From assembly GCF_030581075.1 (NCBI RefSeq), contig NZ_JAUQSW010000010.1, forward strand, positions 62,001-126,000: a DNA stretch of 64,000 bases, in the 5' to 3' direction. The stretch is from Hymenobacter cheonanensis (GTDB lineage Bacteria > Bacteroidota > Bacteroidia > Cytophagales > Hymenobacteraceae). Shown here piece after piece: positions 22,947-62,142 of this stretch; within the stretch, counting starts at the first letter, position 1, and every line of letters starts with the position of its first letter. Under the pieces are notes generated by a model. The model made no database searches, was not told the origin of the DNA, and was given only the letters and a program-made list of their open reading frames with translations. Both the position numbers and the translations under genes were made by a program.

Positions 22947-25193
22947 ATGGCTTTAGATTATCGCGCTCTTTTGAACCCCTCGCAGGCCGCCGCCGTGCTC
23001 CAAACGGAAGGCCCCTGCATGATTATCGCCGGTGCCGGCTCGGGCAAAACGCGGGTGCTCACCTACCGCATTGCTCACCTGCTTGAGCAAGGCGTCGACC
23101 CGTTTAACATCCTGGCCCTCACCTTCACGAACAAGGCCGCCAAGGAAATGCGCGCCCGCATTGAGAAGGTAGTCGGCCCCAACGCCAAAAATCTGTGGAT
23201 GGGCACCTTCCACTCCGTGTTCGCCAAAATTCTGCGCTCCGAGGCCGACCGCATCGGCTTTCCGCGCTCGTTCACCATCTACGATACGCAGGACAGCAAG
23301 ACCCTCATCGGCCAGATTGTGAAGGAGTTGGAACTGGATGACAAGCTCTACAAAGCCAGCACCGTGCTAGGCCGCATTTCAGCCGCCAAGAACAAACTGA
23401 TTTCCCACAATCAGTACCTCAGCGACCCCGTCATCAAGCAGGACGACGAGGCGGCGCTCCGGCCCAAAATCGGCGTCATCTACCAGCAGTACCAGCAGCG
23501 CTGCTTCAAGGCCGGCGCCATGGATTTTGATGACCTGCTGTTTCAAACCAACGTGCTGTTTCGCGACCACCCCGATATTCTGAATAAATACCAGAATAAA
23601 TTCCGGTTTGTAATGGTGGATGAGTACCAGGACACCAACTATTCGCAGTATTTAATTACCCGCAAGCTGGCGGCCAAGGAGCGCAATATTTGCGTGGTGG
23701 GCGACGATGCGCAAAGTATCTACGCTTTCCGCGGCGCGGATATTACCAATATCCTCAATTTCGAGAAAGACTATCCCGAGCTGAATATATTTAAGCTCGA
23801 ACAGAATTATCGCTCCACTAAAAATATCGTGTGGGCCGCTAATTCGGTTATTAAGAACAACCAGGCGCAATTGCGCAAGGACGTTTTTTCGGACAACGAA
23901 GACGGCCATTTAATCGAGGTAATTAAAGCCGCCTCCGACAATGAGGAAGGCAAATTAATTGCCCAGTCGATTTACGAGGACAAGATGAACCAGCATCTGT
24001 CCTACGACAATTTTGCCATCCTCTACCGCACCAACGCCCAGAGCCGGGCCATGGAAGAGGCCCTGCGCAAATTAAATATTCGCTACAAAATTGTGGGCGG
24101 CCTGAGCTTTTATCAGCGCAAGGAAATCAAGGACTTGGTAGCGTATCTGCGCCTCACGGTAAACCCGAATGATGAGCAGGCCCTGCGCCGGGTAATTAAT
24201 TATCCCAAGCGCGGCATCGGCGACACCACGATTAGTAAATTAATTAATTCGGCCGAGGAAAGCAACCACACTATTTGGGAAGTCGTGAGCAACGCCGACC
24301 AGTTTTTGCCAACCAGGGTATCAAACCCGGTGGTAGGCTTCGCCGAAAAAATTAAGAGCTACACGGCCGTGGCGGCTAAGGAAGATGCGTTTGAGGCGGC
24401 CAAATTCATTGCCAAAAACTCGGGCATGATTGAGGAATTGTACGCCGATAAGAGCATCGAAGGCTTGTCGCGCTACGAGAACATTCAGGAGCTGCTCAAC
24501 GGCATCAAGGAATATGTAGACGACCACGAGCGCGAGGACAAGTCGCTAGGGGCGTTTTTGCAGGACATTGCCCTCGTCACCGATTCCGACCTCAAGGACG
24601 CAGCCCAGGAGGGCGAGGCCGTGACGATGATGACCATTCACTCGGCTAAGGGCCTGGAATTCAGAAACGTGTACATCGTAGGCATGGAAGAAAACCTCTT
24701 CCCTAGCCAGATGATGATAACCTCGCGGGCCGACCTGGAGGAAGAGCGCCGGCTGTTTTATGTGGCTATCACGCGGGCCGAAAAGAAGCTCACGCTTAGC
24801 TACGCCACCTCGCGCTACCAGTGGGGCAACCTGCGCTCGTGCGAGAAGTCGCGCTTCCTGGATGAGATTGACCATCAGTACCTTAACGTGAAGTTTGCGG
24901 CCGGCCCGGCCGTGGGCGAGTCGCCGTTTCAGCACGTATTTGAGCGCCGCTCGAACCTTATAGCCGCCCCGGTGCGTAAGACGGTACCGACCAAGTACGT
25001 AGCTCCGGCCGACTTTCAACCCTCGGACACGAGTAACTTGCAGGCCGGCCAGCGCGTTGAGCACGCCAAGTTTGGCTTTGGCAAAGTGGCCACGCTCGAA
25101 AAGCAGAACGGCACCGTGAAGGCGATTATTCAGTTCGATGAAGTGGGCGAGAAAACGCTGCTGCTCAGCTTTGCCAAGCTGCGGGTGCTGTAG
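22947..25193 (+). CDS. pcrA: ATP-dependent DNA helicase UvrD/PcrA (SF1A)
   Basis: 748 aa 3'-5' DNA helicase for mismatch and nucleotide-excision repair and for clearing recombination intermediates. Motif I (Walker A) [13 protein letters not shown] near residue 28, motif [10 protein letters not shown] near 222, motif [17 protein letters not shown], motif IV EQNYRST, motif [11 protein letters not shown] and motif VI ITRAEKK are all present. The C-terminal 45 residues contain the PcrA Tudor-like patch ([15 protein letters not shown]) that contacts RNA polymerase. Length and start are as in the family. Parts of the gene use more AAT/ATT/TTA codons than its neighbours. Confidence 0.95.
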
Positions 25194-50901: not shown

Positions 50902-52215
50902 ATGAAAGACGAAGGAACGGGCTTGCAGGTCTACAAATTTGGCGGCGCCTCGGTGAAGGACGCGGCGGCGATTCTCAACCTCTGCCGCATCGTGCGCAAC
51001 TTTGGGCCTAGCGGGCCGCTGCTCATCGTAGTGTCGGCGATGGGCAAAACGACCAATGCGCTGGAGGAAATTTATGATTTGGCGTATCACGGGCGCGACT
51101 ACTCGGCGCAGCTGGCGGCAGTGAGAGCTTATCACGAGAAAGCAGGCAAAGAGATAGGCAAAGCACAGCCTCATTCCGGTATAGACCCTAATAAGCCAGA
51201 TGCTGGATTAGAAAGCCTCTTTCAAGAACTTGCCTACAGATTAACAAACCTCTCGCATAGCAAAAGCTATGATGAGGGCTACGACCAGGTAGTGAGCTTT
51301 GGTGAAGCTCTCTCTTCAGAGCTTGTTTACGGTGCACTGGCAGGCAGTTTAACTCATAAAGTATATCACCGTTCAACACAGATTGTAACTGATAATACTT
51401 GGCGCGAAGGGAAAGTAAACTGGGAAGAAACTGTGAAGAAGATTCGAGAAGAAATTCAAGGGCTCTTCTTTCCTAACGGCGATGCACACGTTGTTATAAC
51501 GGAGGGGTTTACCGGGCAAGTGCAAAATGACCACCGCACTACCACCCTCGGCCGTGAGGGCTCCGACTACTCGGCCGCCATCTTTGCCTACTGCCTAAAC
51601 GCTGAGAGCGTGACCATCTGGAAAGACGTGCCGGGCCTGCTAAATGCCGACCCCAAAATCTTCCCCGACACGGTGCTGTACCCTGAAATCAGCTACCAAG
51701 AAACCATCGAAATGGCGTTTTACGGGGCTAGCGTCATTCACCCCAAGACCCTGAAGCCGCTGGCCGACCGCCACATTCCGCTGCGGGTGCGCTCGTTTCT
51801 GGACCCGGCCGCGCCGGGCACGCTCATTCACGACTGCCAGCACCCGCCGCTGGTGCCCGCGTTTATTCGCAAGACGGGGCAGTGCCTGCTGTCGTTTGAA
51901 AGCAAGGATTTCGCGTTTATCTCGGAGGAAAACCTGGAGGTGATTTTTGGCGCGCTAGCCCAGGCGCGGCTCAAAATCAACCTCATGCAGAACTCGGCCA
52001 TTAGCTTTTCGGTGTGCACCGATTTCAATGAGATGCGCGTGCAGCGGCTGCTGGGGCTGCTGCAAGGCCAGTTTCGGGTGCAGTACAACTCGGACCTGAC
52101 GCTGTTCACCATCAAGCACTACGACGCGGCCAGCATCGAGCGCCTCACGGCCGGGCGCGAGCTGCTGCTGGAGCAGCGCACGCGCAGCACGTTCCAGTTT
52201 CTGGTGCGCGAATAA
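50902..52215 (+). CDS. lysC: Aspartate kinase (mosaic base composition)
   Basis: 437 aa; phosphorylates aspartate for Lys/Thr/Met synthesis. KFGGASVKDA (nucleotide site), SAMGKTTNALEE, VSFGEALSSEL, TEGFTGQ, TTTLGREGSDYSAAIFA, KDVPGLLNADPKI and an ACT-bearing C-terminus are present. Start at 50902; TAGTTTTG (50888-50895) stands only 6 nt before it. Bases about 51118-51515 drop to about 43 percent G+C (hand count 130 of 300 in 51181-51480) against about 63 percent in a flanking 60-nt check, with AAA, GAA and AGA-type codons, while the frame and the protein motifs continue. This suggests a recombined segment. Confidence 0.93.
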   Translation: MKDEGTGLQVYKFGGASVKDAAAILNLCRIVRNFGPSGPLLIVVSAMGKTTNALEEIYDLAYHGRDYSAQLAAVRAYHEKAGKEIGKAQPHSGIDPNKPDAGLESLFQELAYRLTNLSHSKSYDEGYDQVVSFGEALSSELVYGALAGSLTHKVYHRSTQIVTDNTWREGKVNWEETVKKIREEIQGLFFPNGDAHVVITEGFTGQVQNDHRTTTLGREGSDYSAAIFAYCLNAESVTIWKDVPGLLNADPKIFPDTVLYPEISYQETIEMAFYGASVIHPKTLKPLADRHIPLRVRSFLDPAAPGTLIHDCQHPPLVPAFIRKTGQCLLSFESKDFAFISEENLEVIFGALAQARLKINLMQNSAISFSVCTDFNEMRVQRLLGLLQGQFRVQYNSDLTLFTIKHYDAASIERLTAGRELLLEQRTRSTFQFLVRE

Positions 52216-54317: not shown

Positions 54318-54710
54318 ATGTACATTATAGTTCAAATTTTAGCTGCCCAATACCACGCCTACCGCCGCCAGGGCAGTTCGGCTACAGAAAGCTTACTTTG
54401 GGTGAAAGTAACCAATAGCTTCCCGTTGGCTATGAGTGGCATGGCGTTACTATTTGTAGTCATAGCCACTACAATGAACAAGGAAAATGAACTTCGCCAA
54501 TGTCTAGCTCATACTATTGCCTACTTTTTCTATTTTTTACTTATAGGCGCTTTCTATTGTCTGCACATCTTTGTTCGTAAGCAGCAGCGCATTATTACTG
54601 AACCAATTGGAGAAGATGCTTTTCAGCTAGGTAGGCTGTTAGGTTGGACTTACTTAGTAGTATGTATGATTCTTTCAATTGGGTTGGTTATAGTTTGTAG
54701 TCCGCTTTAG
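54318..54710 (+). CDS. Low-GC hypothetical membrane protein
   Basis: 130 aa, no family recognised. Three hydrophobic segments (about residues 36-52, 68-89, 109-127) with a basic KQQRR loop. Composition is strikingly A+T-rich (hand count 20/60 in 54481-54540 and 25/60 in 54541-54600, about 38 percent G+C) and codons differ from all neighbours. Initiation at ATG 54318 is 28 nt after the waaA stop; the 76 nt before rsgA are also A+T-rich. It looks like a recently acquired or orphan gene inserted between two housekeeping genes. Confidence 0.6.
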   Translation: MYIIVQILAAQYHAYRRQGSSATESLLWVKVTNSFPLAMSGMALLFVVIATTMNKENELRQCLAHTIAYFFYFLLIGAFYCLHIFVRKQQRIITEPIGEDAFQLGRLLGWTYLVVCMILSIGLVIVCSPL

Positions 54711-61263: not shown

Positions 61264-62142
61264 ATGACTATTTCCTTTCTGGGCCTGGGCAGCATGGGCG
61301 CGGCCATGGCCGCCAATCTGCTGAAAGCTGGCTTCCCGCTGACCGTGTATAACCGCACTGCCGAAAAAGCCGAGCCCCTGCGCCAGCAGGGCGCCACCGT
61401 AGCCGCCAGCCCCGCCGAGGCCGTGCGCGGGGCCGACATTGTGTTTACGATGGTGACCGACGACCGCGCCCTCGAAGCGCTCACCACCGGCCCCCACGGC
61501 ATTCTCAGCACCCTGCCCAAGGGCGCCATCCACGCCTCGTGCAGCACCGTGGCGCCCGATACCAACCGCCGCCTGGCCGAGGCGCACGCCGCCCACGGCT
61601 CGTTTCTGGTAGCCTCGCCGGTGTTTGGCAAGCCCGATGTGGCGGCGGCCGGCAAGCTCTGGGTGGGTTCCTCGGGCCCCGCCGAGGCGCGCGAACGGCT
61701 GAAACCTGCCCAGGCGGCCATCGGCCAGGGCACCCACGATTTTGGCGACGACCCCGGCGCGGCCAGTGTGGCCAAGCTCTGCGGCAACTTTCTGCTCGGC
61801 ACCGTGATTGAGGGCCTGGCCGAGGCGCTGACCCTAGCCGAAAAGTGCGGCCTCGACCGCGTGGGCTTCTACGAGATGCTGACCAGCACGCTCTTCAACA
61901 ACCCCATCTACAAGAGCTACGGCAAGCTCATTGCCGAGCAGCACTACCAGCCGGTGGGCGCGCCGCCCGCCATCATCCGCAAGGATATGAACCTCGTGGT
62001 GCAGGAAGCTTACAAGCACGACATGCCCATGCCCTTCGCCAACCTCATCCGCGACCGCCTCACCGCCACCGTGGCCCTGGGCGAGCCCGACGTGGACTGG
62101 GCCAGCTTTGCCAGGCGCGTGTCGGAAGACGCGGGGCTGTAG
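61264..62142 (+). CDS. NAD(P)-dependent beta-hydroxyacid dehydrogenase (GLYR/HIBADH family)
   Basis: 292 aa. GLGSMGAAMAANLLKAG is the family N-terminal nucleotide motif, DDRALEALTTG and CSTVAP follow, SPVFGKP is the substrate-binding region (SG(G/V) usual), and VAKLCGNFLL carries the catalytic Lys. Likely reduces or oxidises a small 3-hydroxy acid or glyoxylate/succinic semialdehyde. It is divergent from the cytosolic Gfo/Idh gene; co-function is only suggested by position. A family C repeat follows. Confidence 0.92.
   Translation: MTISFLGLGSMGAAMAANLLKAGFPLTVYNRTAEKAEPLRQQGATVAASPAEAVRGADIVFTMVTDDRALEALTTGPHGILSTLPKGAIHASCSTVAPDTNRRLAEAHAAHGSFLVASPVFGKPDVAAAGKLWVGSSGPAEARERLKPAQAAIGQGTHDFGDDPGAASVAKLCGNFLLGTVIEGLAEALTLAEKCGLDRVGFYEMLTSTLFNNPIYKSYGKLIAEQHYQPVGAPPAIIRKDMNLVVQEAYKHDMPMPFANLIRDRLTATVALGEPDVDWASFARRVSEDAGL

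Follow-up and report, generated by a model that had tools for sequence, protein, structure and literature searches.

Probable exchange of a low-GC3, hypervariable cassette within the aspartate kinase gene lysC of Hymenobacter

Introduction

The aspartate kinase gene of Hymenobacter cheonanensis has a stretch of markedly low GC in the middle of its reading frame, which raises the question of where such a stretch comes from and how it is accommodated within a core biosynthetic enzyme. The gene lies in a window (the whole stretch of DNA analysed) of 64,000 nucleotides, positions 62,001 to 126,000 of the forward strand of contig NZ_JAUQSW010000010.1. An earlier note on this DNA had read the stretch as a mosaic made by homologous recombination with a low-GC Bacteroidota donor, or alternatively as a product of unusual local selection. 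The reading reached here is that it is probably one allele of an exchangeable cassette, swapped recurrently by homologous recombination and with its diversity kept by selection.

The lysC gene of the window

The gene is identified as an aspartate kinase because three lines of evidence agree, namely a match to Pfam AA_kinase (132 bits), a match of 234.0 bits to the aspartate kinase family TIGR00657 (curated cut-off 208.7) and an AlphaFold2 model (mean pLDDT 90.5) that has the aspartokinase fold, matching solved aspartokinases, which occupy all of Foldseek ranks 1-42. It is not placed in the monofunctional class, TIGR00656, where its score of 193.2 bits is below the cut-off of 402.25. Upstream lies a putative fbp-like gene on the - strand and downstream a putative peroxiredoxin-like gene, both named by eye from their translations. 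The parts of the gene are as follows.

50902..52215, + strand: lysC, aspartate kinase, 437 aa (listed open reading frame; Pfam AA_kinase; TIGR00657; AlphaFold2 model)
50902..51081, + strand: conserved left flank, codons 1-60, with the left anchor VVSAMGKTTNALEE; GC3 0.78 (codons 1-72); identity high up to codons 60-75 in five printed pairs
about 51082-51126 to 51523-51537, + strand: limits of cassette exchange, from comparisons of close-relative pairs
51118..51515, + strand: low-GC3 hypervariable cassette, with the limits of the earlier note; GC3 0.39; 35-36% identity to loci L036 and L011
51280..51306, + strand: conserved motif YDQVVSFGE within the cassette; Y127, D128, G134 and E135 invariant in 69 sequences
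51388..51423, + strand: conserved motif TDNTWREGKVNW within the cassette; T163, W167, R168, E169 and W174 invariant in 69 sequences
51538..51576, + strand: right anchor TTTLGREGSDYSA, where high identity among relatives restarts; T214 to D222 invariant in 69 sequences
51577..52212, + strand: conserved right flank, the remaining catalytic domain and C-terminal part; GC3 0.82; median identity 0.80 among 28 carriers of a low-GC3 cassette

The compositional drop is as real as had been claimed, GC being 0.60, 0.45 and 0.61 and GC3 0.78, 0.39 and 0.82 across left flank, segment and right flank. The low values given before also stand, with GC down to 0.425 in the core of the segment in 200-base windows, but the 63% given for the flanks was slightly high. 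Frame and aspartate kinase motifs run uninterrupted through the segment, as previously described. It codes for residues from about 61-75 to about 208-212, which form a mostly helical portion of the catalytic domain and include the conserved SFGE and TD.TWREG motifs, the Glu of SFGE being presumably a substrate-binding residue; in the model the segment forms helices at residues 68-88, 101-115, 123-131, 133-149 and 174-184 and strands at 153-157 and 195-201.

That both edges are sharp was borne out by comparing close relatives, for which five pairs were printed and 17 pairs were examined in 15-codon bins. In the five printed pairs the right edge of the swap falls at codons about 208-212, just ahead of the TLGREGSD codons; for the left edge the position differs among pairs, within codons 61-75. 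The right flank of the window gene is 96% identical to those of L036 and L011, against 35-36% for the cassette.

Among 695 ORFs of at least 300 aa, from the window and one 400-kb stretch of each of four other Hymenobacter genomes (1.6 Mb), the internal GC3 dip of the window lysC (0.37) is the second largest, the 99th percentile being 0.30 and the largest dip (0.53) belonging to leuS of genome G092. A second scan used different settings and also took in 400 kb of the window's own genome; among its 992 ORFs the window lysC came fourth, after leuS of G092, leuS of the window's genome and a hypothetical gene of G043, in that order.

Other patches of this kind were seen in passing. A large ORF of the window's genome, peptidase-like by eye (G000:C11:211979-215068), has a GC3 of 0.41 vs 0.85 at codons 735-815; a helicase-like ORF of the window, again by eye (22947-25190), shows a mild dip of 0.65 vs 0.81-0.82 that is similar in its counterparts in G083, G010 and G092; and a small ORF of 130 aa, membrane-like by eye (window 54318-54710), sits in a patch of GC about 0.37-0.47.

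Low-GC3 middles across the genus

The search for lysC covered 120 genomes of the genus and named genome contigs (80 of 93 loci kept). After exact duplicates had been merged, 92 distinct coding sequences were aligned; one partial sequence (L111) was excluded from counts, leaving 91, and pair counts were made on the 85 from Hymenobacter after the exclusion of six rows of other genera. Four of the 120 genomes (G013, G019, G105 and G096, the last fragmented and 90% complete) gave only weak, distant matches, and a normal lysC seems to be absent from them or to have been missed. In three further genomes (G108, G111 and G118) the best match spans only the C-terminal half. The genes of G111 (L114) and G118 (L115) each carry a disrupting frameshift at a G-run close to the right edge of the cassette, with intact relatives in existence; a break linked to the cassette itself was considered and set aside in favour of the G-run frameshift, the cassettes being ordinary by eye and sequencing error being possible.

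By a fixed rule (GC3 below 0.6 in the middle and above 0.62 in the right flank), 28 of the 91 aligned genes have a low-GC3 middle. Their median protein identities for left flank, middle and right flank are 0.79, 0.36 and 0.80, against 0.66, 0.54 and 0.82 in the rest. For trees and for mean composition 25 of the 28 were picked by hand, L108, L084 and L088 being dropped because their cassettes resemble ordinary ones. In these 25 the mean GC1, GC2 and GC3 are 0.58, 0.39 and 0.44 in the cassette, 0.58, 0.41 and 0.80 in the right flank and 0.62, 0.39 and 0.74 in the left flank, so that the drop sits in the third codon position with GC1 and GC2 hardly lowered. An overlapping gene was rejected, since none of the 25 cassettes stays open over its full length in any of the five alternative frames, and so was an intein or other in-frame insertion, since the cassette takes the place of homologous residues and differs by small indels only.

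All-or-nothing divergence

Two clades, A and B, were read by hand off the flank tree, L066 being added by its right flank, and together comprise 37 sequences. In 25 of the 37 the GC3 of the cassette lies more than 0.2 under the right-flank value, a gap seen in 1 of the 48 others. Among the 85 Hymenobacter genes there are 57 pairs with right flanks at least 95% identical, and cassette identity in these is either 0.33-0.49 (16 pairs) or 0.63-0.94 (41 pairs), with no pair between 0.49 and 0.63. All but one of the 16 strongly diverged pairs (15/16) fall in the two clades, the exception being L054/L055. Right-flank and cassette identities are 0.98 and 0.34 for L022/L050, 0.96 and 0.34 for L010/L038, and 0.96 and 0.36 for the window gene and L011. 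In nine swapped pairs, a share of 0.71-0.91 of the identical residues in the flanks also have identical codons; for the cassette the share is 0.27-0.45. Single-linkage grouping of the 37 sequences gives 7 cassette types at 45% identity and 10 at 50%, which need 14 and 20 changes respectively on the flank tree (L066, one of the 37, is outside that tree). Across the aligned versions the frame and the catalytic motifs are preserved, and the length changes little.

The region also evolves quickly elsewhere. At right-flank identities of 0.90-0.95 its median identity is 0.80 in genus g2, called Pontibacter-like (6 pairs), and 0.60 in g33 (13 pairs), where no swaps are evident; in Hymenobacter it is 0.38 both in clade A (45 pairs) and in clade B (65 pairs) and 0.68 in the rest of the genus (148 pairs, lowest 0.34). 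This indicates that the cassette region is naturally fast-evolving but that swaps are concentrated in two Hymenobacter clades.

Comparison with other genes sets lysC apart. Between G083 and G010 (median identity 0.968) its left, middle and right identities are 0.98, 0.36 and 0.98, and this high-low-high dip of 0.63 is the largest of 157 genes, the next being 0.28; between G092 and G043 (median identity 0.887) its dip of 0.57 is the largest of 108 genes, followed by leuS (0.52) and a hypothetical protein (0.51). Overlapping ORFs were thinned for these scans, and the unthinned G083/G010 set of 221 ORF pairs, with its shadow ORFs, gave the same top gene. The stretches compared were chosen around lysC and not at random, and since each covers 400 kb, roughly a tenth of its genome or less, genes elsewhere may equal lysC.

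Conflicting trees

Quick trees of flank and cassette were made from 50 rows picked by hand from the 91, a comparison already suggested in the earlier note, and their histories are incongruent: seven of eight AU tests reject, although the p-values are optimistic because the tested groups were named after the trees had been viewed. The flanks reject the cassette groupings {L002, L039, L034, L035, L010, L006, L007} (p 4e-69), {L011, L050, L059} (p 9e-35) and {L036, L043} (p 6e-5), and do not reject {L012, L045} (p 0.62); the cassette rejects all four flank groupings tested (p 6e-54, 3e-6, 8e-8 and 2e-56). The window's cassette clusters with those of six other Hymenobacter (support 95). Together with the two-mode distribution of identities, the conflicting trees require recombination, which is well supported for the lysC cassette. 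The proposal of homologous recombination has thus held, by virtue of the sharp edges and the seven rejections, whilst that of a one-off mosaic in one strain has not, as relatives carry different segments at the same site, many of them low in GC3, and leuS behaves alike.

Constraint on the cassette

In the within-type pairs tested the cassette is under purifying selection, dN/dS being 0.09-0.21 in eight pairs, with a ninth saturated. All eight have a higher dS in the cassette (0.92-2.01) than in the right flank (0.42-1.01), and L020/L030 is the one pair in which the left flank is the higher (1.04, against 1.03 in the cassette). Because cassette dN and dN/dS are also above the right flank in 8/8 pairs, somewhat weaker constraint contributes. 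Y127, D128, G134, E135, T163, W167-E169, W174, G202 and F203 are invariant in 69 sequences.

Origin of the cassettes

Searches outside the genus produced no close source for the window's segment. Ranked by E-value, the top match among 390 genomes sampled from the order was 44% identical over residues 31-133 of 133, and that among 395 sampled from the class was 40% identical over residues 29-133; among the matches listed, identity was at most 49% and over part of the segment, and those spanning nearly all of it were 32-42% identical. The low-GC Bacteroidota donor that had been proposed finds no counterpart in these values. Viral contigs gave no match to the segment, plasmids gave no match to the segment and only matches below 60% to the whole protein (156 records), and phage records gave only matches below 60% (30 records). 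A search of the whole genome of the window for silent cassette copies returned one DNA match of the segment, and the other protein matches there were to distant kinases only, at 33% and 30%. Gene conversion from the genome's own thrA-like gene was also considered and rejected, that gene matching the cassette at only 32% over 53 residues and having a GC3 of 0.81-0.91 in its four quarters. With no close source in the searches, a single copy in the genome and a thrA-like gene that is no closer, the versions would have their source inside the genus or in relatives or vehicles beyond the samples searched.

A wider cassette tree of 73 rows used 24 of the 25 low-GC3 rows and excluded L051 (a long branch), L128, L140 and L141. 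One branch of it (SH-aLRT 87) separates 44 of 46 Hymenobacter cassettes from other genera, a placement that is uncertain owing to long branches and few columns. The other two, L087 and L088, fall with other genera and are candidates for true import.

A second gene, leuS

The leucyl-tRNA synthetase gene leuS behaves like lysC and is a second core enzyme gene with the same pattern. When leuS of G043 was used as the query, 48 of 120 genomes matched end to end, and in 55 (counted by hand from the match listing) the best stretch runs from residue 1 to 632-682. The break point sits before the KMSKS motif, in what we take to be the leucine-specific domain. Twenty sequences (19 of 20 chosen loci and G092; L318, from G083 and with no full-length frame, was excluded from the alignment) have a variable region of 112-157 residues with a GC3 of 0.31-0.47, against 0.80-0.93 in three long conserved stretches, and this is not a random sample because the loci were picked for broken or fragmented matches. 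Thirty others have a variable region of 76-77 residues and a GC3 of 0.51-0.86. Among the twenty the variable regions are 12-74% identical, mostly 20-45%, against 75-98% for the C-terminal part. L303 and G092 are 98% identical outside the variable region and 22% inside; L303 and L311 are 82% identical outside and have the insert in common at 71%. The window's own genome has a leuS of the low-GC3 hypervariable kind (L300, G000:C11:78800-82200). A full-length relative of the insert occurs in G129, from another family of the order, at 48% identity, and its pool therefore seems to cross families.

Several further features of leuS were observed. The hypervariable low-GC3 domain before KMSKS is found across much of the genus (L300, L301-L319 and G092:C1:2576497-2579481), with types shared by distant relatives. 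L300, L309, L316 and L317 have an additional in-frame stretch between residues 286 and 330, of ordinary GC3 (0.84) in L300. The genes at G083:C1:1122402-1124293 and G061:C1:3643296-3645208 consist of two open frames meeting near residue 320, a frameshift that is either real or a sequencing error.

Explanations

All-or-nothing identity and conflicting trees together lead to the view that the lysC middle is an exchangeable, hypervariable and mostly low-GC3 cassette, concentrated in two flank clades, in which it has been replaced repeatedly by diverged versions. The most likely mechanism would be homologous recombination by double crossover, with the crossovers in the near-invariant coding stretches that flank the cassette. 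DNA uptake may precede it; a DprA-like gene is present, though the DprA family also matches 11 of 14 control genomes. The persistence of many versions, and the way in which lysC stands out among the genes compared, suggest selection for being different, for example as a way to evade an inhibitor, a phage protein or a toxin that would bind this part of the enzyme. As no dN/dS above 1 was found in within-type cassette pairs, such selection is something we infer. Low GC3 without clearly lower GC1 and GC2 points to versions that would have evolved mostly in a lower-GC pool and be incompletely adapted to the host.

Of the other accounts, a fast drift in place towards an AT-rich mutational equilibrium, by local hypermutation or relaxed constraint, is the least improbable but still unlikely. 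It would suit the excess of dN, dS and dN/dS over the right flank in every within-type pair and the grouping together of nearly all Hymenobacter cassettes (44/46), but dN/dS is nevertheless only 0.09-0.21, GC1 and GC2 are hardly lowered, and the two-mode distribution and conflicting trees need recombination in any case, so that such drift could act in addition. A single import from a low-GC Bacteroidota lysC, as in the earlier note, accounts for the sharp edges and for a low GC3 with GC1 and GC2 near flank values, and L087 and L088 (not the window's cassette) do fall with other genera; it is very unlikely given that identity outside the genus does not exceed 49% over part of the segment among the matches listed (32-42% where nearly the whole is spanned) and that the window's cassette joins six other Hymenobacter in a group with support 95 and lies inside the genus in the wider tree.

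Equally hard to credit is the idea that low GC3 is kept for translation, as slow codons during folding, with the turnover of sequence incidental. The concentration of the GC3 drop in clades A and B (25/37, against 1/48 elsewhere) and the low GC3 of leuS, likewise at an internal domain, would fit, but the same flank clades include the high-GC3 cassettes (0.81-0.91) of L026, L028, L031, L056 and L058, so that low GC3 is not required, and the swapping is left unexplained. An assembly chimera or contamination is exceedingly improbable: a low-GC3 middle recurs at this position in 28/91 lysC genes drawn from different assemblies, which makes it implausible as a general cause, and frame and motifs are intact in the window. 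Recurrent exchange of a cassette remains the preferred reading.

Comparison with known systems

A number of systems offer partial parallels. The genes penA and pbp2x are mosaic housekeeping genes made by interspecies recombination, and lysC resembles them in that diverged homologous sequence has taken the place of internal blocks, leaving sharp edges and trees that conflict, but differs in that the swapped blocks are mostly only 33-41% identical in protein, that the same block is replaced repeatedly across the genus, and that the gene encodes a biosynthetic enzyme with no known donor or drug. The target-recognition domains of hsdS are modular and hypervariable, and their variation alters DNA specificity; lysC shares the variable cassettes between conserved anchors and the large pool of types, but encodes a metabolic enzyme whose catalytic motifs are retained, and the search of the window's genome turned up no silent cassettes, a point on which it also differs from antigenic variation based on cassette archives. 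The changes made by diversity-generating retroelements are scattered and adenine-linked, unlike the whole-segment replacement with indels seen in lysC. A literature search by title and abstract opening gave no report of such cassettes in lysC or in Hymenobacter, which is not proof of absence.

Passages of one paper describe AgnB2 as a plasmid-encoded self-immunity LeuRS resistant to a known toxin, and a figure legend there shows it to be without the leucine-specific domain (PMC5059758). In the Hymenobacter case the domain that appears hypervariable is the leucine-specific domain, missing in AgnB2 according to that legend, and the likeness would be that of a LeuRS altered against an inhibitor; AgnB2 as described there (PMC5059758) is plasmid-borne and directed against a known toxin, whereas the Hymenobacter cases have no known inhibitor. 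By the abstract of a study of recombination-hot regions in bacterial genomes (PMC4866539), hot genes frequently have to do with the cell surface or membrane, and cold regions are enriched in some housekeeping genes. The locally raised recombination at lysC resembles the hot regions described there, but here, unlike the hot genes of PMC4866539, the hot segment lies inside a housekeeping enzyme.

Implications

The lysC and leuS cases carry a warning that single-gene trees and composition-based calls of transfer can go wrong within housekeeping genes. Recombination with very distant sequence is not what one expects of core metabolic enzymes. It may be, although we regard this broader suggestion as tentative and rather doubtful, that Hymenobacter exchanges low-GC3 cassettes from a shared pool and so varies internal surfaces of its core enzymes, namely aspartate kinase and, in LeuRS, the leucine-specific domain, in an immune-like variation of targets against phage proteins, toxins or antibiotics that bind them, with catalysis retained. 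Repeated swaps of one block in lysC and one in leuS, for versions as different as those of other families, would imply strong pressure on those parts of the two enzymes, and these parts would then be likely targets of natural inhibitors.
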